DNA of 33,282 nt from Desulfobacteraceae bacterium (GTDB taxonomy: Bacteria > Desulfobacterota > Desulfobacteria > Desulfobacterales > RPRI01): positions 1-33,282 of the forward strand of contig RPRI01000045.1 in NCBI GenBank assembly GCA_003818505.1, in the 5' to 3' direction. The position numbers and the translations under genes are program-made. This document shows, in pieces, positions 8,954 to 25,987 of this stretch; within the stretch, counting starts at the first letter, position 1, and every line of letters begins with the position of its first letter. The notes below the pieces were generated by a model. It worked only from the letters and a program-made list of their open reading frames with translations. It ran no database searches and had not been told where the DNA came from.

Positions 8954-10480
8954 TTATAAGTCACCTGGAACAAGACTCAAGTCCGCCTGCATGTGTTGAT
9001 GGGGAAATCCAAAATGCTCTATAACCTGCCCTATAGGCTGCCAGCCGAGTTTTTTAAAAAACCGGACATTCCTTTCCTGAATTTCCGCCGTAAAAACAGT
9101 ACATCCATTTTTCTTTACCCGTTTCATGGCCTCTTTGACCAGGAGAGATCCGGTTCGACCGGTGCGATACTCTTTTTGAACCGCAAGCCTGCCGCCGATC
9201 CAGTGCCCGATTTCAGCTTTTACGGGAAAAACCCTGACAGTTCCGATAATCTTGCCATCCTTTTTTGCCACCAGGAAGATGCTTTCCGAATCGTTTTCAT
9301 CCCTGTCCGAATCGCTGAACATCCTCTGCTCATTAACGAACACCTCTCTTCTGATTTTGAAGGCCTCATTCCGTTCGTGGGTATTTCTAGCACTGTGACA
9401 AACGATTCCGGATTCATTTTTTTCATAAGCGCCAAGCGCTGAACAGGCGCCGCATCGCACACATCCCGCTAATGTCTCTTTCGTTGAAACCTCTTTTTTC
9501 TGGAGAATCACTGCAACGGCATCGTAGATACGCTTCATTCTTTCCGGGTCAGGCGGAACGGCGTTCTCAAGGGTTGATCCGGGTAGGGGGCGTAGGGGAA
9601 CGACAAATGGGTATACTCCCAAATCTGCAAGGACTTCACTGCCCCATGCAATGGATTCGGAAGATTCTCCCATACCGGCAATCAGAAAACTGCTTACCCT
9701 GCTTGGTCCAAACAGCTCAACAGCTTTTTTCCACGCTCTTTCATATCGATTCATTCCGATTTCTGCTTTGGCAGGAGCGATACGAGCAAGCACTTTCAAA
9801 TCAAAACTTTCCACATGAATGCCTACGGCATCCACACCTGCATCCTTTAACGCATCAATGAGATCAAGATTCCCCGGGGGAGCAAATTGGACCTGAACAG
9901 GCATATTCACAACGGCCTTCACTGCGCGAACGCAATCGGCAAGATACGTAATTTCACTTCCAGCCGGATCACCCGTGCCGGAAGTTAAAACCATATGAGA
10001 TACGCCATCCATATCCCAAGCGGCCCTGGCTACTTCGGCAAGCTGTTCCGGAGACTTTCTCGCAATGGTCTCCTTGTTTCTCAGGGATGTTTCAGTGGAG
10101 CAGAAGCCGCACTTTTTAAATTGTTTCCAGTGAACGCATTGTTGAAGAACGGTTGTAGCCAGACAATCCCTGCCGTGGAGAAGGGCGATATTTCTGAAGC
10201 CGACACCATCCCGTGTGGATTGGGTATAGAACGCCGGGTCAGGAACCACTTCCAGTGACGAAACTACTTTCCCATGCTTTACAAGAACATAGGAATTATC
10301 CATGGACTCCAGGCTGAAAGGAGAATGCGAGACATAGTGACCGGCAATGGGTGCATTAACCGGGATGCCGCCTATGAGAAAAGATTTCCCTTCGGCCGGA
10401 CCTGCGCCGCCTTTTCGCCCTTGAATATCCTTATGAACCCTGATTCCCAGGCTTTGTATCTCGGTGATAAGATGACGCAT
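8954..10480 (-). CDS. MSMEG_0568-like radical SAM domain fused to MSMEG_0567/Sll0786-like GNAT N-acetyltransferase
   Basis: N-terminal half: CVHWKQFKKCGFCSTE (CX3-type cluster context), HMVLTSGTGDP, CVRCGACSALGAYE. C-terminal half (~140 aa): RREVFVNEQRMFSDSDRDEND…GTVRVFP…RLAVQKEYR…NVRFFKKLGWQPIG…FGFPHQHMQADL. Confidence 0.85.
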   Translation of the reverse strand: MRHLITEIQSLGIRVHKDIQGRKGGAGPAEGKSFLIGGIPVNAPIAGHYVSHSPFSLESMDNSYVLVKHGKVVSSLEVVPDPAFYTQSTRDGVGFRNIALLHGRDCLATTVLQQCVHWKQFKKCGFCSTETSLRNKETIARKSPEQLAEVARAAWDMDGVSHMVLTSGTGDPAGSEITYLADCVRAVKAVVNMPVQVQFAPPGNLDLIDALKDAGVDAVGIHVESFDLKVLARIAPAKAEIGMNRYERAWKKAVELFGPSRVSSFLIAGMGESSESIAWGSEVLADLGVYPFVVPLRPLPGSTLENAVPPDPERMKRIYDAVAVILQKKEVSTKETLAGCVRCGACSALGAYEKNESGIVCHSARNTHERNEAFKIRREVFVNEQRMFSDSDRDENDSESIFLVAKKDGKIIGTVRVFPVKAEIGHWIGGRLAVQKEYRTGRTGSLLVKEAMKRVKKNGCTVFTAEIQERNVRFFKKLGWQPIGQVIEHFGFPHQHMQADLSLVPGDL

Positions 10481-15395: not shown

Positions 15396-16118
15396 TTATA
15401 CCGCCAGATGATCAAGAATAATCTGTTGATTATCGATCAATTCCTGAGTCGTTGCGATACCGGTAATTTTTCCTTTGGTGCTCATTAAATAATGTCGACT
15501 GGCGACTTTCAGGGCCATTCGGTAATTCTGCTCCACGACCAGCAGCGTCATTCCCGAACCAACACAAAAATCTTTCACAATTTCGGTGATCGAAACTACC
15601 AGCAATGGGGACAGCCCCTGGGAGGGCTCATCCATAATGATAATCTTGGGATTACTGATTAGCGCCCGACCGATTGCAAGCATTTGCTGCTCGCCGCCGC
15701 TGAGCGTAGATCCATCCTGGTTGATGCGATCGGCCAGTACCGGAAAATAGTCGTAAACCCGCTCCAGAGTGCAGGGCTCTCCCCCGTTACCGGGACGCGA
15801 GGCAATCGTCAGATTTTCTTTCACGGTCAAGCCAGGGAAGATATGCCGTTCCGCCGGAACATAGGCCACTCCCAGCCGGGAAACCCGGTGCGCGGGCCAG
15901 CGAATGGTTTTTTGGCCGTCAATGGTGATCGATCCGGAGCGCGGCGGGGTGAGTCCCATGATGGATCGAAGAGTCGTGGTCTTGCCGACACCGTTTCTCC
16001 CCAGAATGGAGACGGCCTCGTGAGCATTGACGAATAAAGAGAGTCCCTGAATGGCGTGGCTTTCTCCGTAATAGGTGTGAATATCTTCTATCTCCAGAAT
16101 TCTATTCGTCTTTTCCAA
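15396..16118 (-). CDS. livF: Branched-chain amino acid-type ABC transporter ATPase LivF; likely TTG start inside the livG end
   Basis: GRNGVGKTT, LSGGEQQMLAIGRAL, IIIMDEPSQGLSP; in-frame TTG GAA AAG… start overlapping livG; the ORF track start at 16199 appears too long. Confidence 0.9.
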   Translation of the reverse strand: MEKTNRILEIEDIHTYYGESHAIQGLSLFVNAHEAVSILGRNGVGKTTTLRSIMGLTPPRSGSITIDGQKTIRWPAHRVSRLGVAYVPAERHIFPGLTVKENLTIASRPGNGGEPCTLERVYDYFPVLADRINQDGSTLSGGEQQMLAIGRALISNPKIIIMDEPSQGLSPLLVVSITEIVKDFCVGSGMTLLVVEQNYRMALKVASRHYLMSTKGKITGIATTQELIDNQQIILDHLAV

Positions 16119-16848
16119 GATAGGCCTCCCTGACCAACTGGTTCGTCCTGATTTCTTCGGGCGCGCCCTCAGCGATGATACTGCCGTAATGAAGCACATT
16201 GATTGTATCCGAGATTCTCATGACCATATCCATGTCGTGCTCGACCAGCACGATCGATATTTCCCTGGAAAGACCCTTGATCAGCTCGGAGATATGGTTG
16301 GTTTCCGCGGGCGACATACCGGCCGTGGGCTCATCCAGAAAGAGAATTTTCGGATCTCCTGCCAGGGCGATAGCCACCTCCAGGATCCGCTGGTCGCCGT
16401 AAGACAGGTTTTTGGCGGGTAGACCGGCAAGATCCTGAAGGCCGAGCCGCTCCAGAATCACCCATGCATCGCTTGCCACTTTTTTCAGGCTCATTTTGGT
16501 GGAAAATATTCTTAAAGAGCCGCCGGAGCGGGCCTGTTTGGCGATCCTTACATTTTCAAACACTGTCAGATTGCTAAAGATGCTCGTAATTTGAAAGGTT
16601 CTGCAGATTCCCTTTTTGACCAGTTCATGGGTCGGCTTGTTGGTGATTTCGGCGCCTTGAAAATACACTTTCCCGGAGCTGGCCGGTATTCGGCCGGTAA
16701 TGATGTTGATAAATGTGGTTTTACCAGCGCCATTTGGCCCGATAATGGATCTCAACCCGGTTTTTTCAAATTCTATGCACACGCAATTCGTTGCCATGAC
16801 TCCGCCGAAATGCCGACACAGATTATCGGTGCATAAAAACGCATCCAT
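16102..16848 (-). CDS. livG: Branched-chain amino acid-type ABC transporter ATPase LivG
   Basis: GPNGAGKTTFINIITG, LSYGDQRILEVAIALA, ILFLDEPTAGMSPAE, LVEHDMDMVMRISD. Confidence 0.93.
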   Translation of the reverse strand: MDAFLCTDNLCRHFGGVMATNCVCIEFEKTGLRSIIGPNGAGKTTFINIITGRIPASSGKVYFQGAEITNKPTHELVKKGICRTFQITSIFSNLTVFENVRIAKQARSGGSLRIFSTKMSLKKVASDAWVILERLGLQDLAGLPAKNLSYGDQRILEVAIALAGDPKILFLDEPTAGMSPAETNHISELIKGLSREISIVLVEHDMDMVMRISDTINVLHYGSIIAEGAPEEIRTNQLVREAYLGKDE

Positions 16849-16857
16849 GATATTGAA

Positions 16858-17853
16858 TTAACTCCTTCGCAGACGTTTGAAAAGGTTGCCGAGGCCGACA
16901 AATCCCGACGGCATGAACAAGACCAGAAAAATCACCACGAGACCGAGGAAGATTTCCCAATGCTCGGTCATGGTGCTGATATAATCCTGAATATAGATGA
17001 AGATGCCCGCCCCGATAATTGGTCCCCAGAGTGTTCCCAAACCGCCTAAAAGAACCATCATCAAGACCCCGGCGCCGGCAAAAGCGCTCATCGTGGTGGG
17101 ACCGATATAGCCCTTGTATAGAATAAAAAGCGCGCCGGATGTTCCGGCAAGAATGCAGGCCAGTACCCATCCGAAAAGCTTGTAGCGTCTGACAGCGATG
17201 CCGACAAACGCAGCGCGTTCCTCATTTTCACGAATGGCTTCCAGCACGGCGCCAAAGGGGGAGCGTATAATTCGGCGGGTCAGGACAAGCGCGATGGCGA
17301 CCACAAACAGGGTCAACAGATACATATGCGTCGGGTTGCCGGCGTTCCCGACGGACCATCCGAAAACCTGAATATCGGGACTAGGCACGCCCATTAGTCC
17401 GTCATCTCCACCGGTGAGGCCATACCACTTCCAGACGATGGTATAAAACATCATCCCGAAGGCTAGTGTCAGCAGGGCAAAGGCGAGCCCGCCTGTGCGC
17501 ACCTGAATCCAGCCGACCGGCAGGGCTATTAACCCCGTGACAACGATGCCGATCAGGCATGCCAGCCAGAGCGATGTGGGTGATACGTGAATCAGAAACA
17601 GTCCCACCACATACGCGCCGATGCCCAGATAGGCATTGTGCATGAAGGAGAGCAGTCCGGTGTATCCCAGCAGCACGTCCAGGCTCATGGCCAGCAGCCC
17701 GTAAATCATGATTTCTGTGATCAAGCTGATATAAAACCGGTTGCTCCACACAAAAGGCAGCAATGAAAGTGAGATGAAAAGCGCCGCCAGGCCGATGAGT
17801 TTAAGGGGCGATAGCGAGGTGCGCTCGTTGGGCATTGAGGGTGAGCCACTCAT
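16858..17853 (-). CDS. livM: Branched-chain amino acid-type ABC permease LivM
   Basis: Polytopic membrane protein; GYTGLLSFMHNAYLGIGAYV, AIRENEERAAFVGIAVRRYKLFGWVLACILAGTSGALF, GGLGTLWGPIIGAGIF. Confidence 0.93.
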   Translation of the reverse strand: MSGSPSMPNERTSLSPLKLIGLAALFISLSLLPFVWSNRFYISLITEIMIYGLLAMSLDVLLGYTGLLSFMHNAYLGIGAYVVGLFLIHVSPTSLWLACLIGIVVTGLIALPVGWIQVRTGGLAFALLTLAFGMMFYTIVWKWYGLTGGDDGLMGVPSPDIQVFGWSVGNAGNPTHMYLLTLFVVAIALVLTRRIIRSPFGAVLEAIRENEERAAFVGIAVRRYKLFGWVLACILAGTSGALFILYKGYIGPTTMSAFAGAGVLMMVLLGGLGTLWGPIIGAGIFIYIQDYISTMTEHWEIFLGLVVIFLVLFMPSGFVGLGNLFKRLRRS

Positions 17854-18728
17854 TATTCAAATTTTCCTTCTCCGAAAAGTCCGCGGGGCATAAATGCCAG
17901 AATTACCGCCATCAACATGTACACGATCACCATAGCCAGATCCGTTATAAAAAATTCCGCCAGAGTCTGCACGATGCCGATCAAAAGAGCCGCAAACACC
18001 GCGCCGCGCAGGCTGCCCAGGCCGCCGATGACGATTACCACAAAGGAGCTGATCAGCATTTCATGGCCCATGAGCGGGTCAATCGTCGTTAAGGGACCTG
18101 CGATAATGCCGGCAACACCCGCCAGGGAACAGCCTAAAATGAACGCGCCGATATGAACATAATTCATATTGATCCCCAGGCAGGAAACCATTTCCGGAAT
18201 CGTGCTGGCGGCCTTGAGAATCATGCCGATGCGTGTTTTATTCAAAAAAAGCATCAGGCCGATCATGACTGCGGCAGTGGTTGCCAGGGTAGCCAGGCGG
18301 AAGACCGGGTAATGAGTGCCGAAAATCGACAGGGTCTCGCGCATAAAGGCAGGAATAGCGACAAACCGGGGTTCGTTGCCCCAGCTGTACTTGATCAGGC
18401 CGTCTAGAAAAAACATCAGGCCATAGGTCAGAATGAGGGTGTAGATCATCGAGCGCTTTCGCATGGGCGCAATTACGATGCGCTCTATAATAAGCCCCAT
18501 GACGCCAACGATGACCGGCGCGAGCAGCAGGGCAGCAAAAAAGTTGACGCCAAGAGAAACGATCGTATATCCGGTATAGGCGCCGATGGCATACAGCGAA
18601 CCGTGCGCCAGATTCATCACCCGGCTGAGCCCGTAGATGATATTCAGGCCTACGGCCACAATTAAAAAGACGCCGCCCAGAACGAGACTGTTGAGCGTAA
18701 TGTCGACAGCGGTAGCAATTCCACTCAT
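17853..18728 (-). CDS. livH: Branched-chain amino acid-type ABC permease LivH
   Basis: YGLSRVMNLAHGSLYAIGAYTGYT, ASTIPEMVSCLGINMNYVHIGAFILGCSLAGVAGIIAGPL, GGLGSLRGAVFAALLIG. Confidence 0.93.
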   Translation of the reverse strand: MSGIATAVDITLNSLVLGGVFLIVAVGLNIIYGLSRVMNLAHGSLYAIGAYTGYTIVSLGVNFFAALLLAPVIVGVMGLIIERIVIAPMRKRSMIYTLILTYGLMFFLDGLIKYSWGNEPRFVAIPAFMRETLSIFGTHYPVFRLATLATTAAVMIGLMLFLNKTRIGMILKAASTIPEMVSCLGINMNYVHIGAFILGCSLAGVAGIIAGPLTTIDPLMGHEMLISSFVVIVIGGLGSLRGAVFAALLIGIVQTLAEFFITDLAMVIVYMLMAVILAFMPRGLFGEGKFE

Positions 18729-18793
18729 TTCGATATCTTCTATGTATGTTTTGCCCCGCCGCGCGGGGAATTCGTTGCTGAGGTGTTCAGGCT

Positions 18794-18842
18794 GAAGACT
18801 GAAGGGGAAAGCGATGACATTTACTCTCTTCCTTCAGTCTTC
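18794..18842. repeat. Intra-operon hairpin between the livK-like and livH-like genes
   Basis: GAAGACTGAAGG…CCTTCAGTCTTC, perfect 12-bp arms; a second GC hairpin CCCCGC-CGC-GCGGGG lies at 18754-18768. Confidence 0.7.
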
Positions 18843-18870
18843 TTTCTATGCTCCTATCCTGTTTGTCTAA

Positions 18871-20061
18871 TCACTCAGGCGGTCCCAGCTCTGCCGCTTT
18901 AAATGTTTTCAGAACTTTCATGGAAACCTTGGCACCGTAAGGATTCTTCGGAGCGGCCACGGTTTCTGTCCAGACTGCGTCATTGCGTGCACAGTTGTCT
19001 TTGGCCGCGATACGCACCGTTCCGTAGGGGCCGTTAAAACTGATGCCTTTGAGCGCCGCAGAGATGGCCTTGGCATCCGTGCTGCCAGCCTTATCAATAG
19101 CGTTAAACAGGTTCATGGCGCCCACATAGCTGTGAACCGCCGCATCGGAGGGGATCGTCTTATATTTGTCGAAGAAAGCTTTTTCCCATTTGTCCGAGAT
19201 GGGAGTGTTGACATCCCAGGACCAGTCAGATGCGCCGTAAATGCCGTAGCAGGCCTCTCCTCCGGCTTCCAGTTCAAGGGGCCCCGGCGCCGCCGCTGAA
19301 ACAAGTTTCATGCCTTTGGCCTGAAGTCCGAAATCAGACGCCTGTTTGGCAAAGATGGGAATGACGTTGGTGATGAATGCCATGTAGACGGCGTCGGCGC
19401 CGGAAGCCTTGATTTTGCTGATATAGGAAGACCAGTCTTTTGTTGAAGTAGGCGCCTTGTCATAAGCCTCGTTGTAGATCTTGATGCCTTTTTGCTTGGC
19501 AAGGGCAATAAAGCGGTCTCCTGCGTCATGGCCCCAGGCATAGTCATGAACAATGACATAATAGGTACGATTTTTAAGCTCCGGGTTGGACAGGATGCCC
19601 TGCACGTTTCCGATAGCGGTTTGATCATTTGCCAGCTGGCCGCTTCTGAAGACCAGCGGGTTGAGGTTATAAAACTCGGTCGTCATAACATGGGTGGTAA
19701 CAAAGGGAACTTTGAGTTTGTCAATATTTTCCGCAATGGCAAGCCCCACACCACTTGAAAAAACACCGATCAACGCAATGCAGCCGTCTTTGTAAACCAG
19801 TTTTTCAGCCTTTGTCACCCCAACTGGCGGCTTCAACTGGGTATCCTCTACCAGCAGTTCGATCGGCCGGCCCAATATCTTGCCTTTTTCCTCGGCCGCC
19901 ATTTCCATGCCATACTTCATTTCCAAACCACCCTGCGCAACAATACCGGTCAGCGGAACCAGCACACCGATTTTTACCGGCTCGATCGCTGCAGCAGGCT
20001 GAGCCATGATCATCAAAACCGAAAAAAACAGACTAATCGCTACTACCAATAGCTTCTTCAT
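18871..20061 (-). CDS. Branched-chain amino acid-type ABC substrate-binding protein (LivK-like)
   Basis: Signal peptide; VKIGVLVPLTGIVAQGGLEMKYGMEMAAEE, typical Peripla_BP_6 layout. Confidence 0.92.
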   Translation of the reverse strand: MKKLLVVAISLFFSVLMIMAQPAAAIEPVKIGVLVPLTGIVAQGGLEMKYGMEMAAEEKGKILGRPIELLVEDTQLKPPVGVTKAEKLVYKDGCIALIGVFSSGVGLAIAENIDKLKVPFVTTHVMTTEFYNLNPLVFRSGQLANDQTAIGNVQGILSNPELKNRTYYVIVHDYAWGHDAGDRFIALAKQKGIKIYNEAYDKAPTSTKDWSSYISKIKASGADAVYMAFITNVIPIFAKQASDFGLQAKGMKLVSAAAPGPLELEAGGEACYGIYGASDWSWDVNTPISDKWEKAFFDKYKTIPSDAAVHSYVGAMNLFNAIDKAGSTDAKAISAALKGISFNGPYGTVRIAAKDNCARNDAVWTETVAAPKNPYGAKVSMKVLKTFKAAELGPPE

Positions 20062-20248: not shown

Positions 20249-20299
20249 GGAGCCGTAACGAAATAGTGAAAAAAGTTATGGTTATTTTGTAACGGCTCC
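20249..20299. terminator. Inverted repeat directly at the end of the HdrD-like gene
   Basis: GGAGCCGTAACGAAATA…TATTTTGTAACGGCTCC, ~17-bp arms with two mismatches; no clear T-tract, so possibly a repeat and not an intrinsic terminator. Confidence 0.4.
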
Positions 20300-21615
20300 T
20301 AATCCGGCAATGCCATGTCAATGAGTTCAACCAGGTCATAAAGTTTCATCGGGCTTTTTATACGTTTCGCACCTTCGTTAAGGTTGAAATGGCAGAAGGG
20401 GCAGATGGAAATCATGTGCTCAGCCCCGGTACTCATACCTTCCTCGATTCTGAGTCCGGCATTTTTTGATGCCCAGTCTCCATAACCGGTCATAACGCCG
20501 CCGCCGCCGCCGCAGCAATAAGAATTGCTCCGGATTCGGTCCATTTCCCTGAAATCGATGCCGGGAAGCGCCTTGAGCATTTCACGCGGAATGTCATACA
20601 GACAATGCTCTTCATTCTTACCAAGATAAGAGCCGATCCACTGCTGGGATCCGTCTTTATCAATTTTATACTCGATCAGATGTCTGCCGGTATGGCATGG
20701 ATCATGATAAGTGACCTTCCATGGAACTTCTCTGGTGAATTTCATCTTTCCTTCTTTAAACAGACTATAGAGAAAGTCAGTCGTATGAATTACCTGGATA
20801 CCGCCAAGAAGCGTCTCGTATTCGTCCGAAAGACTGTAGTCCTTTTTAATCGCTCTGAAGCACCCTGCGCATGAAGTGATAATGGTTTTAACTCCGTGAT
20901 TATCGTGGAGGTCCTTGAAAGTTTTCATGTTGGTTTCCGCAACACGTTTGAATTCATCCACATCTCCAAGCCTCATCGCCGTGGAGCCGCAGCAGATTTC
21001 ATTTTCTCCGAGGATACCAAAATCCAGACCAAGCTTCTGAAAGATGGAAGCGGTTGCCACGGGAAGATTTCTGACAGGAAGATTGAAAGCGCCGGTGCAC
21101 CCGACATAGTAAAGAATCGGCGCATCTTTCTTCATGATATCTTTGATGGGTTTCCCGGCCTTCTTAAACGGGCGGGTCCAGTCGGTTCTCACCCTGCGAG
21201 GCCCTTGGTAGGGGTTATTGTAGCTCCGCATGGACTGGGCAATGACTTTCTGTGTCGGCATGGGTCCCACGCCGTCATTTACAGCTTTTCGCCGCATCGA
21301 TTCGATGATCTCGGGAATAAACGGCTTATGATCGAGTTCGCATTGATTCTGACAACCTCCACATACCGTACATTTATAAATCGCATCCAGAAAATCATCA
21401 TTCCATTCCAGCTCTCCGTCAAGAATTCCTCTGGCAAAGGCGATCTTGCCTTTGGATGCCATGTTTCCGTCAAAGCCAAATTCAACCCCTGCAGGACAGA
21501 TTTCTCCAAATGTAGGAGGAGGACCGAATTCGTAAGTACCCTTACAGTTGCCGCACGCCGTACACTTCCAAACAATGTTTTCCAATTCTTCAAGAGTTGG
21601 TATATCCCACTTCAT
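20299..21615 (-). CDS. Heterodisulfide reductase subunit D-like / GlcF-like Fe-S oxidoreductase
   Basis: CTACGNC…ICPAG and CTVCGGCQNQCE N-terminal motifs; two CCG-type domains (CCGSTAMRLGD…SCAGCF; YHDPCHTGRHL…YCCGGGGGVMTG). Confidence 0.88.
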   Translation of the reverse strand: MKWDIPTLEELENIVWKCTACGNCKGTYEFGPPPTFGEICPAGVEFGFDGNMASKGKIAFARGILDGELEWNDDFLDAIYKCTVCGGCQNQCELDHKPFIPEIIESMRRKAVNDGVGPMPTQKVIAQSMRSYNNPYQGPRRVRTDWTRPFKKAGKPIKDIMKKDAPILYYVGCTGAFNLPVRNLPVATASIFQKLGLDFGILGENEICCGSTAMRLGDVDEFKRVAETNMKTFKDLHDNHGVKTIITSCAGCFRAIKKDYSLSDEYETLLGGIQVIHTTDFLYSLFKEGKMKFTREVPWKVTYHDPCHTGRHLIEYKIDKDGSQQWIGSYLGKNEEHCLYDIPREMLKALPGIDFREMDRIRSNSYCCGGGGGVMTGYGDWASKNAGLRIEEGMSTGAEHMISICPFCHFNLNEGAKRIKSPMKLYDLVELIDMALPD

Positions 21616-21666: not shown

Positions 21667-23112
21667 TTACAATGCAAGTTTTCCTGTATTCATAATATCG
21701 TTAGGATCCAGCATGTTTTTTACCTGTTTTAAAAGGGAAATATACCCGGGATGAGCTCGCTTATTTATTTCCAGCGCAAAATCCACCGGTGGTTTGTAAG
21801 GAATTCCGCCGTTATTCAGGTCAACTTTCAGGCACTCGACAATAGCCTGTCTGGCATTTTCTACAGCAATTGGGTCTTGTTTGGGAAATGGGATCATGGC
21901 CCGAAGCATTCCATAGTGGACACCTCGGTAATTGGTCACGCGAACAGAGGGGGAAAGATTACGGGCAACAAGAATTTTTTTCCACGCATCATAAACCGGC
22001 TCCCACTTATTGAGGGGTGTAAAGGTTCCAGGCCAAGAAATACCACCACCCGCCTGTTTTGTATAGTTTTTGGTTGACCCCACGATCTGACTAGGCAATT
22101 GAGTCCTTGCCTTCAGGGCTTCTGCGGGATACTGGGTCTCCTTGAGGGAACTGCCTTTCTTTATCTCCTCATCAAAGGCCATTCTCCAGATCTCTTCCCG
22201 GGCCTCTTTTTCTTTCTCGGTCCAAGAAAAAGTCGTTGCAAATGACACCCATTCCGGAACACCGTCCGGTTTCGGTTTATATGGATAGGGAATGGGTACC
22301 TGAGAAAGCCACCAGGATACACCTGTCAAGTCATCGCAAATTTCGTAATTACCCAGCGTACGAAGGTAAGATGCCATATCTCCAATTTTTTCTGTAGATG
22401 CAGTAAAAACTTTTAGAATCGGAGGAATGGGATGGACCCTGACGCCAATCTTGGTTATGATCCCGGTTGTTCCCAGCCATCCTGTAAACAGACCATCAAC
22501 GCGGGGCAAAGGAAGGCAGCTGTGCCATGCATCCTCCTGGATCGCACATGAGCCGACCCTGACCAGTTCTCCAGAGGGTAACACGACTTCCATGCTGGTG
22601 ATTTCTTCACTGTTCAAACCATACCGCCCGCTCATCCCACCGATACCGTGGCAAATGGCATTGGAAGAGACCGAGCCCGATGGTGGTCCAACCGGCCAGC
22701 TCCATCTCAGTCCGTGTTTATAAAGAGCGCTGGCGAATTTGGCATGTGAAACTCCGGGTTCGATGATTGCATAATGAGACTCTGCATCAATCCGGATGAT
22801 CTGGTTCATTCGTTTGAGATCCAGAAGAATACCACCGTTCTCCGGGATGCAGAGCCCGCCTATATTGGTGCCGGCCGTGAAAGGAGTTACCGATATTTTC
22901 TTCTGGCTGGCAAATTTCATAATTTGCTGAACCTGCCCAACGGTCGTCGGCATCACAACATAATCAGGATTTTTACGCTTTACAAAAGACAAGTCATAGG
23001 AATAGGCGTAACGGATGTGCTTCAAGTCCGTAGCGTTTTTTTCGCCGACAATTTCACATAGCTTTTTTGTGATTTGTGGATCAACTTTTGACTCTTTTGG
23101 TTTTTCGGTCAT
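21667..23112 (-). CDS. FAD-binding oxidoreductase (GlcD/D-lactate dehydrogenase-like)
   Basis: FAD_binding_4-type motif YVVMPTTVGQVQQIMKFASQKKISVTPFTAGTNIGG, IEPGVSHAKFASALYKHGL, SNAICHGIGGMSGRYG, C-terminal LDPNDIMNTGK. Confidence 0.92.
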   Translation of the reverse strand: MTEKPKESKVDPQITKKLCEIVGEKNATDLKHIRYAYSYDLSFVKRKNPDYVVMPTTVGQVQQIMKFASQKKISVTPFTAGTNIGGLCIPENGGILLDLKRMNQIIRIDAESHYAIIEPGVSHAKFASALYKHGLRWSWPVGPPSGSVSSNAICHGIGGMSGRYGLNSEEITSMEVVLPSGELVRVGSCAIQEDAWHSCLPLPRVDGLFTGWLGTTGIITKIGVRVHPIPPILKVFTASTEKIGDMASYLRTLGNYEICDDLTGVSWWLSQVPIPYPYKPKPDGVPEWVSFATTFSWTEKEKEAREEIWRMAFDEEIKKGSSLKETQYPAEALKARTQLPSQIVGSTKNYTKQAGGGISWPGTFTPLNKWEPVYDAWKKILVARNLSPSVRVTNYRGVHYGMLRAMIPFPKQDPIAVENARQAIVECLKVDLNNGGIPYKPPVDFALEINKRAHPGYISLLKQVKNMLDPNDIMNTGKLAL

Positions 23113-23277: not shown

Positions 23278-24066
23278 TCAACTACCCGTATCCGGTTTTA
23301 AAATGCCTGTTTCCGTTAAAACCATATCTCCGTTTTTACAGGCCAGCATCCCCTTTTCAACCTCGATGATATGCTGAAGCATTTCTTTACTGGCCTTCTC
23401 TGGATCACGTTCACACAAGGCTTCAACTATTTTCTTATGGCCATCACAGACCATCATCAAAAAGTCGTGGTTCATTTGCAACATGCGTTTAACATTTATC
23501 AAGGCAGTCTGGACAGTTTCAACAATGAGACTAATGACAGTGTTCTCAGTAATATCAGCAAGCTTTTTATGAAAAGCGCAGTCAAGATCACTCATGAAAT
23601 TTTCACCATCCACCTCTTTTTCCATCTCTAAAATATTGCTTTTCAGATAATCGATATCATTGTCCTTGATTTTTAAAGCGCATATCTTAACAACTTCCGG
23701 TTCAATAAAGGTTCGAATCTGGGTATATTCGCGGATACTGGGATTTTGAAAGAAAAAATAATTTACAAGCCCGTCTTTTATCGTTTTCAGATCGACTTCC
23801 CTGACAAATGCGCCACCGGACATACCTTGCTTTATTTCCAGCAGCCCGTAAGCTTCCAGCACACGGTATGCTTCCCTGAGAGACGACTTGCTTACACCAA
23901 ATTTCATGGCAAGGTCTTTTTCAGACGGGAGTCGGTCTCCAATTTTTAATTCTCCACTCAAAATGGCGCCGCGTATCTGATGAACAATATTTTCTGACAT
24001 CCTGTTAGATTTTACAGTATCAAAAATATCTTTCATATCGTGCATCTTTCGTGCATCATCCCCCAC
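23278..24066 (-). CDS. GntR/FadR-family transcriptional regulator
   Basis: Winged HTH (IRGAILSGELKIGDRLPSEKDLAMKFGVSKSSLREAYRVLEAYGLLEIKQGMSGGAFV) and FCD-type C-terminal domain. Confidence 0.93.
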   Translation of the reverse strand: MGDDARKMHDMKDIFDTVKSNRMSENIVHQIRGAILSGELKIGDRLPSEKDLAMKFGVSKSSLREAYRVLEAYGLLEIKQGMSGGAFVREVDLKTIKDGLVNYFFFQNPSIREYTQIRTFIEPEVVKICALKIKDNDIDYLKSNILEMEKEVDGENFMSDLDCAFHKKLADITENTVISLIVETVQTALINVKRMLQMNHDFLMMVCDGHKKIVEALCERDPEKASKEMLQHIIEVEKGMLACKNGDMVLTETGILKPDTGS

Positions 24067-24301: not shown

Positions 24302-24658
24302 ATGGGAATTAAAATTGATGCACTAAAATGTATAAATTGCATGGCCTGTGAAATGGCTTGCAGTTACCATAGAGACGATGGCTTTGCCTTTCTCTCCGCC
24401 TGTATTGTAGCGTATCGAGCTAGGGAAAAGCGGGATTACTTTGGTATTCTTCTTAAAGAAGAGGAATTTCTTAAGGTTGCCCGCCCGGAAGGACTTGAGG
24501 TTAATAGAATTGGGGAAGCGGCAGACCCGAACAAGGAAGCAGATGCTTCAGCCAAGCCCATGCTCCTGAGGGAAGGATGTGACCTTTGTGAAGATATGGA
24601 TGATTACGGGCCGATGTGCATAGTAATTTGTCCTGTAGATGCGATTACCCTTGAATAA
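24302..24658 (+). CDS. 4Fe-4S ferredoxin-like protein (AOR-associated type)
   Basis: CINCMACEMACS near the N-terminus and CDLCEDMDDYGPMCIVICPVDAI near the C-terminus. Confidence 0.85.
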   Translation: MGIKIDALKCINCMACEMACSYHRDDGFAFLSACIVAYRAREKRDYFGILLKEEEFLKVARPEGLEVNRIGEAADPNKEADASAKPMLLREGCDLCEDMDDYGPMCIVICPVDAITLE

Positions 24659-24673
24659 ATAAGGAAAACTAAT

Positions 24674-25987
24674 ATGGAATATTTATCAACAGATAAGATC
24701 CTTGTCATTGACTTGGCAACATCTGAAATTGAAGAAACAGCACTGGATGAATCTCTTGTCAGCGAAAAAATAGGTGGAGCCGGAATAACCAAATACCTCT
24801 ACGATAAATTTCAAAATGATGATCCCATTGTTATTGGAACCGGGTTACTCACAGGCACAACCTGCCCAGCGTCCGCTATAGGGTTGATTACGGCTAAAAG
24901 TCCTGTTACCGGAAAATTGTGCCACTGCCCCATAATATATAAGGTTGGTATAGAGATCAAGTTTTCGGGCTACGATCATATTGTTGTTAAAGGAGTATCA
25001 GATAACCCTGTGTACCTTTGGATCCACGATGGTGTTGCTGATATCTCCGATGCTTCGGAAATCTGGGGTAAGGATGTCTGGGAGTCAACGGATTCACTGC
25101 GTAAGCATGTGGGAGACGACCTTCTCCAGACTATGATAATCGGCAAAGCCGGCGAAAACAGATCTGATTATGCACAAATTTGTTATAACTACTGGAGCAG
25201 CCCTGATCGTTTTGGATTTGGCAAACTTTTTGGCAGCAAAAAGCTTAAAGGCCTGGCCTTCAGAGGCATGGGACTCATAGAGGTCGCTGATCATGAAAAT
25301 TTTGTCAGGCGTTCGCTTGAAATCCTAAAGGAGATTAAAACGAATGATTTCATGACGAAAAAAGGCATCGCAGAGATCGCCTCAGCCCTTGGCGAAGCGG
25401 GTATAAAAGAGTGGCTGGAACCCATTGTGCATAGACACAGCGCTGACTATTTCACTCCCTATGCTACCAATACCGCTGTTTTTCTTGATGAAGATCCAAA
25501 ACGTGTTGAGGAAAGCAAGGTCGCTGAACCTGGAGTGCTTATTTCGGATGTCCCTGCCCTGCTCGCATTTAAAAAGCTGGGGCTTTCGGCTGAAGATACT
25601 GGCCGTGCATTTAAAGCATGTGCAAAATACGGCATTGACCCTGCGGCTGTTGCCGAGCTTTCCGGAAAATCAAGCCTGCAAGAGATTGTCGATTCGTTTG
25701 ATGGATTAAGCGGCACTGTCACCTTGAAAGGCAAGGGCCACTTCAGTTCCTGGTGCCCCTTGAAACCCATTTTTAATAATTTTGGGCTTTCCGGAGACGC
25801 TGCCAAGGACGAAACCTGGTGGGAAAGAAGGCAGGCAATTGCCCTGATATTTGGAATCCAGCCAATTTTTTCTATCATGTGCCCTGAGCTGTCGGAAGAG
25901 AAACTGTTAGAACTATCTCGTATTGGAACAGAACTCGATCTTACTCAGGATATCCTGGACAGGGTTGTAGCCGATCTTTTGAAATAA
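24674..25987 (+). CDS. Short aldehyde:ferredoxin oxidoreductase (AOR)-like protein lacking Fe-S cysteines
   Basis: AOR N-terminal pterin-domain-like segments (IGGAGITKYLYD, GTGLLTGTTCPASAIGLITAKSPVTGKL, IGKAGENRSDYAQICYN…DRFGFGKLFGSKKLKGLAFRG). Only 437 aa, no CxxCxxxC. Confidence 0.8.
   Translation: MEYLSTDKILVIDLATSEIEETALDESLVSEKIGGAGITKYLYDKFQNDDPIVIGTGLLTGTTCPASAIGLITAKSPVTGKLCHCPIIYKVGIEIKFSGYDHIVVKGVSDNPVYLWIHDGVADISDASEIWGKDVWESTDSLRKHVGDDLLQTMIIGKAGENRSDYAQICYNYWSSPDRFGFGKLFGSKKLKGLAFRGMGLIEVADHENFVRRSLEILKEIKTNDFMTKKGIAEIASALGEAGIKEWLEPIVHRHSADYFTPYATNTAVFLDEDPKRVEESKVAEPGVLISDVPALLAFKKLGLSAEDTGRAFKACAKYGIDPAAVAELSGKSSLQEIVDSFDGLSGTVTLKGKGHFSSWCPLKPIFNNFGLSGDAAKDETWWERRQAIALIFGIQPIFSIMCPELSEEKLLELSRIGTELDLTQDILDRVVADLLK

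Follow-up and report, generated by a model that had tools for sequence, protein, structure and literature searches.

What becomes of an aldehyde ferredoxin oxidoreductase (AOR) once the residues that hold its cofactors are gone? The question is raised by a short AOR-like protein, referred to here as sAOR, encoded in a 33,282-nucleotide contig of a Desulfobacteraceae bacterium (the window). A preliminary description of the locus had proposed two answers, a pterin-only enzyme for which the adjacent ferredoxin would serve as cluster donor, or a non-redox binding protein.

An intact, shortened AOR gene

The sAOR gene begins with an ATG and reads through 437 aa with no internal stop. The only Pfam AOR domain found in the product was AFOR_N (residues 8-198, 167.5 bits), and AFOR_C was absent.

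24674..25987, + strand: sAOR (short AOR-like protein), 437 aa, intact; ATG start, 0 internal stops
24695..25267, + strand: AOR N-terminal domain (AFOR_N) of sAOR, Pfam; Arg76 replaced by I69, Asn93-Ser-Gly-Gly by P86-I-I-Y and Gly185 by D178 (P. furiosus AOR numbering given first)

All 34 aligned family members showed the same AFOR_N-only pattern, with an AFOR_C match in 0/34. Besides sAOR, the source genome encodes seven AFOR_N proteins whose open frames span 587-699 aa, or 578-699 aa when counted from the first Met; sAOR is its sole short AOR and lies 141-262 aa below these seven, in agreement with the earlier statement that the protein is shorter than usual. The Class I definition requires AFOR_C domains (IPR001203) together with IPR013983 (PMC13328260); sAOR has the AOR fold and AFOR_N and lacks IPR001203. 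The automatic label "aldehyde ferredoxin oxidoreductase" would be misleading for sAOR genes.

A conserved family under purifying selection

Two other genomes of the genus encode relatives of the same length at 92% identity, and Syntrophaceae encode others of that length at 56-59% identity. In profile searches, 16 of 292 genomes sampled from the order contained the family, as did 31 of 390 from the class, where every reported match exceeded 530 bits, and 35 of 395 from the phylum. The family thus sampled comprises ~60 distinct relatives of 404-535 aa, present in roughly 5-9% of the genomes at these three ranks. A spread into Bacillota gained no support: 300 genomes from the phylum of the L043 genome gave 0 matches at E<=1e-60, a result that is uninformative for want of a known positive in the sample. 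In the tree, 40 family members formed a single clade (support 100/100) separate from the full-length AORs, and the branch linking this clade to canonical AORs was long.

sAOR is under purifying selection, with a within-genus dN/dS of 0.12-0.14 overall and of 0.03-0.07 for residues 201-300, the region of the former cluster motif. The intact frame had been read at the outset as divergence and not decay, and the same-length relatives and the dN/dS values confirm that reading.

Loss of the Fe-S cluster ligands

Ligand positions were mapped by aligning the family jointly with 29 full-length AORs from the source genome and its genus. Four columns were Cys in all 29, and in sAOR they were occupied by D258, T261, T265 and Q396. 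Since these columns fall in the following two stretches, the stretches represent the places of CxxCxxxC and DxxGxC.

25424..25471, + strand: former CxxCxxxC site IVHRHSADYFTPYATN, residues 251-266; Cys positions now D258, T261, T265; H253 invariant in the family
25841..25882, + strand: former DxxGLC ligand site ALIFGIQPIFSIMC, residues 390-403; Cys494 replaced by Q396

The preliminary description had stated that all the cluster cysteines were gone and had quoted two segments as their former sites. The four substitutions establish the first point, and residues 251-266 and 390-403 coincided exactly with the two sites. The [4Fe-4S] ligands, CxxCxxxC plus the distal Cys, were absent from sAOR and kept in 7 of 62 distinct relatives. 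When the positions were read across these 62, four Cys were counted in seven, two in two and one or none in 53. The four-Cys members were L110, L111, L113, L114 and L119 (~500-535 aa) and two short proteins, L073 and L078. The cluster-retaining relatives carried CYNCPYPC or a similar motif at the former CxxCxxxC site, and position 396, which is His or Asp in most other relatives, was Cys in L073, L078 and the ~500-aa group.

sAOR contains several other cysteines. C316 alone was nearly invariant in the family, and therefore no alternative four-Cys cluster site is conserved in the family alignment; on this ground the idea of alternative cluster cysteines was rejected.

In the main clade, former ligands 1 and 4 were mostly Cys258 with His396 or Asp258 with Gln396, a pairing that may reflect either contact covariation or shared ancestry.

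Degeneration of the pterin cofactor site

Alignment with Pyrococcus furiosus AOR (PfAOR) placed I69 of sAOR at Arg76, which we take to contact the pterin in the 1AOR structure, and P86-I-I-Y at Asn93-Ser-Gly-Gly. Of the 29 canonical AORs, 27 have Arg76; all 40 family members carry another residue there. Gly95 and Gly96, which follow Asn93, occurred in 29 and 26 of the 29 canonical AORs, respectively, and were replaced in most family members. All 34 short members lacked the C-terminal RGW..G tail as well as the late domain 2/domain 3 segment. Gly185 corresponded to D178, an Asp that is invariant in the family and lies within the loop of Ala183. In AOR, the Mg2+ bridging the phosphates of the two pterins is held by main-chain contacts of Asn93 and Ala183, and the second shell consists of Thr243, Glu313, Tyr427 and His448 (PMC12096430). 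The sAOR family alignment contained no invariant Tyr or His between residues 254 and 437.

Judged by sequence, the pterin site is damaged in every sAOR family member, the residues expected to bind the tungsto-bispterin (Arg76, Gly95-Gly96 and the conserved domain 3 and C-terminal positions) having been lost. A 2025 review lists a W- or Mo-bis-metallopterin in all known AOR/WOR family members (PMC12096430); the sAOR family, which displays no sign of a working cofactor site, appears to be an exception.

Order of cofactor loss

The four-Cys relatives all shared the damaged pterin site. On the tree, complete cluster loss maps to the root of the main clade, and the other clade shows independent partial losses. 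Because the ~500-aa relatives kept four Cys while their pterin site was already damaged, the cofactor site is likely to have gone first and the cluster second. Degeneration of the pterin site probably predates the diversification of the family; loss of the cluster probably followed, at least twice. This order contradicts the idea of a pterin-only enzyme. The graded series from four Cys to none also offers a way to ask what the large subunit contributes, apart from catalysis, to an AOR-ferredoxin pair.

A predicted reduced AOR fold

The AlphaFold2 model of sAOR, built from the 34-sequence family alignment, had a mean pLDDT of 93.2 and a pTM of 0.93. Foldseek against the PDB gave nine matches at E<=0.001, all from the AOR/WOR/BamB family (TMq 0.64-0.83, the best 0.81-0.83), with 1aor on top (E 4.5e-27, TMq 0.81, 544 columns aligned). 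The alignments to AOR structures were long and gapped and spanned most of the sAOR chain. The model is a miniature AOR (TM ~0.8), and sAOR as modelled is a reduced AOR with the whole-chain fold, not a domain-1 fragment. Relative to full-length AORs, ~10 aa are deleted in domain 1 and ~45 aa ahead of the CxxC position, together with a long stretch that starts late in domain 2 and reaches into domain 3, and the RGW..G-bearing C-terminal tail.

PfAOR (1AOR; AFOR_N + AFOR_C) shares the whole-chain fold, and its N-terminal domain matched at 120 bits (phmmer). sAOR is 168 aa shorter, lacks CxxCxxxC and DxxGLC, and has lost or changed Arg76, Asn93-Ser-Gly-Gly, the domain 3 segment and the C-terminal tail.

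A WorS-like ferredoxin as constant upstream neighbour

The gene directly upstream of sAOR encodes a ferredoxin.

24302..24658, + strand: ferredoxin, 118 aa, two four-cysteine [4Fe-4S] motifs; constant upstream partner of sAOR

A ferredoxin gene occupied this position in every locus examined, typically coding for 112-125 aa, with a longer ORF or a merely partial ferredoxin match at a few loci; this supports the earlier suggestion of the adjacent ferredoxin as a partner. The eight cluster Cys were invariant among 22 aligned sAOR-linked ferredoxins, and the source genome encodes this ferredoxin only once. Among PDB sequences, those that the ferredoxin profile matched best were AmWOR1 WorS (9mqx_E), HDCR HycB3/HycB4, AorA (8c0z_C) and BamC (4z3w_E). 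An adjoining gene of the WorS/AorA/BamC type is what a WorLS-type locus would carry. Given the upstream position and these matches, the two genes are, by their sequences, a WorL-WorS-like pair in which the large subunit lacks cofactor ligands.

WorLS and AorAB (Acetomicrobium WOR1, 9mqx; Aromatoleum AOR, 8c0z) likewise combine a large AOR-fold chain with a small ferredoxin-like subunit, and differ from the sAOR pair in that the large chain of sAOR is without cofactor ligands. The sAOR-linked ferredoxin has two cluster motifs, whereas WorS has four (PMC13328260). No WorABC-type plug or AorC was found among the sAOR-locus genes examined. AOR-fold and ferredoxin-like subunits are also combined in BamBC, part of class II benzoyl-CoA reductase (4z3w). 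BamB (PMC12096430) and sAOR both lack the AOR second-shell residues; BamB, in which Cys322 is a W ligand, retains W-bis-MPT and the cluster, whereas sAOR appears to retain neither.

Gene neighbourhood

The genes flanking the pair in the window were as follows.

20299..21615, - strand: GlcF/TfrB-like CCG iron-sulfur protein, beside the GlcD-like gene
21667..23112, - strand: GlcD-like FAD-linked oxidase, transcribed divergently from the sAOR operon; linkage seen in both clades
23278..24066, - strand: GntR/FCD regulator, between the GlcD/GlcF and sAOR operons
26001..27326, + strand: BPL_N / class-I glutamine-amidotransferase-like protein, 441 aa, GxCAG nucleophile elbow (Pfam BPL_N 44.5 bits)
27386..28267, + strand: multihaem c-type cytochrome (Pfam)
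28267..28968, + strand: cytochrome b561 / formate dehydrogenase gamma-like membrane subunit (domain matches)
28938..30503, + strand: multihaem c-type cytochrome fused to NarI-type membrane cytochrome b (domain matches)
30536..31990, + strand: HdrD/TfrB/TmcB-like protein, two CCG domains and a 4Fe-4S dicluster (domain matches)
31854..32729, + strand: conserved protein, no match in Pfam or NCBIfam; close to the operon or CCG gene in several relatives

In the main clade the order was ferredoxin, sAOR, BPL_N/GATase-like protein (next after sAOR in most of the clade), multihaem cytochromes, NarI-type cytochrome b and HdrD/TmcB-like CCG protein; GntR, GlcD and GlcF genes often lay nearby in divergent orientation. 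The second clade had GlcD, GlcF, GlcD, ferredoxin, sAOR and a CCG protein. Common to both clades were an FAD-linked oxidase and a CCG iron-sulfur protein. This gene linkage suggests that electrons may reach the membrane from an oxidation of the 2-hydroxyacid type; matches to GlcD lay far below the equivalog cut-off, and the families are weak and broad.

The downstream genes resemble the TmcB/TmcC and HdrD/TfrB modules of the Tmc/Dsr/Hdr-type CCG-cytochrome b membrane complexes of sulfate reducers. We know of no AOR-fold subunit in complexes of this type.

The BPL_N/GATase-like protein (26001-27326) yielded no informative solved relative. Relatives of the protein encoded at 31854-32729 (L041, 14979-15695; L042, 15176-15898) contained a CSACLEF-type segment.

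Possible functions of sAOR

We favour, with somewhat more than even confidence, the view that sAOR is a cofactor-free AOR-fold partner of the WorS-like ferredoxin. sAOR would then be a pseudo-AOR, a small version of the AOR/WorL fold that has ceased to bind the tungsto-bispterin and, in the branch of the source gene, the [4Fe-4S] cluster as well. Gene order points to pairing with the neighbouring two-cluster ferredoxin in the manner of WorL and WorS; sAOR would act as a scaffold or docking subunit and electrons would pass via the ferredoxin and not the AOR-like chain. The pair might link a GlcD/GlcF-type FAD/CCG 2-hydroxyacid dehydrogenase to the HdrD-like CCG protein and to a complex of membrane cytochrome b and multihaem cytochrome c. 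The loss of both cofactor sites, as read from the alignments, is firmer than the scaffold role. With the pterin site damaged family-wide, the non-redox or binding protein was the better of the two functions initially proposed.

Short or cofactor-less AORs were not described in the open-access literature searched, and the sAOR family is probably an undescribed electron-transfer module in sulfate-reducing and syntrophic bacteria. We give an even chance to the fuller statement that this is an AOR pseudoenzyme family which lost the tungstopterin site first and the Fe-S cluster afterwards, and whose members either depend on a WorS-like ferredoxin as obligate partner, within a complex that carries electrons from 2-hydroxyacids to the membrane, or have taken on new chemistry in the emptied cavity.

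New chemistry in the emptied AOR cofactor cavity, with sAOR as an enzyme or ligand-binding protein and the ferredoxin as electron carrier, is the main rival but unlikely; an example would be a mononuclear metal site or a CoA/organic-acid site made from invariant His/Trp/Asp residues. Eight residues (H84, H118, H253, E94, D101, D178, W174 and W383) were invariant across the 34 members; H84, H118, H253, W174, D178 and W383 could be part of a new active site, which counts against the scaffold view. The C258/H396 or D258/Q396 pairing in most main-clade members also speaks for new chemistry, though shared ancestry may explain it. However, the old ligand positions do not form a conserved metal set (D/T/T/Q in sAOR), and no conserved set of residues matched any known chemistry.

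A pterin-only tungsten enzyme with the adjacent ferredoxin as its cluster, the other function initially proposed, is highly improbable. AFOR_N is still recognisable, the ferredoxin adjoins sAOR, and the tungsten cofactor is probably made, because the genome has seven full-length AORs. Yet Arg76 (in all 40 members), Gly95-Gly96 (in most) and the conserved domain 3 and C-terminal positions are lost family-wide, even in cluster-retaining relatives, and an invariant Asp178 replaces Gly185 in the loop of Ala183, a main-chain Mg ligand (PMC12096430). Even less credible is a full catalytic AOR whose missing parts are supplied by another gene of the operon: the operon does contain several further conserved genes, but no AFOR_C match was detected in the neighbouring proteins tested, and the model is a complete compact fold without an extra part. 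Misassembly, internal deletion or a decaying pseudogene, which the length relative to the paralogues and the 352-contig assembly might suggest, is refuted by the same length in dozens of independent genomes, the dN/dS values and the conserved gene neighbours.

Other genes in the window

A complete branched-chain amino-acid-type ABC transporter is encoded at 15396-20061 (- strand), upstream of GlcD/GlcF, and may import the substrate of the GlcD/GlcF flavoenzyme. At 8954-10480 (- strand), a radical SAM domain is fused to a GNAT acetyltransferase domain; this gene adjoins an AIR-synthase-related gene and an NMT1/ABC uptake system.
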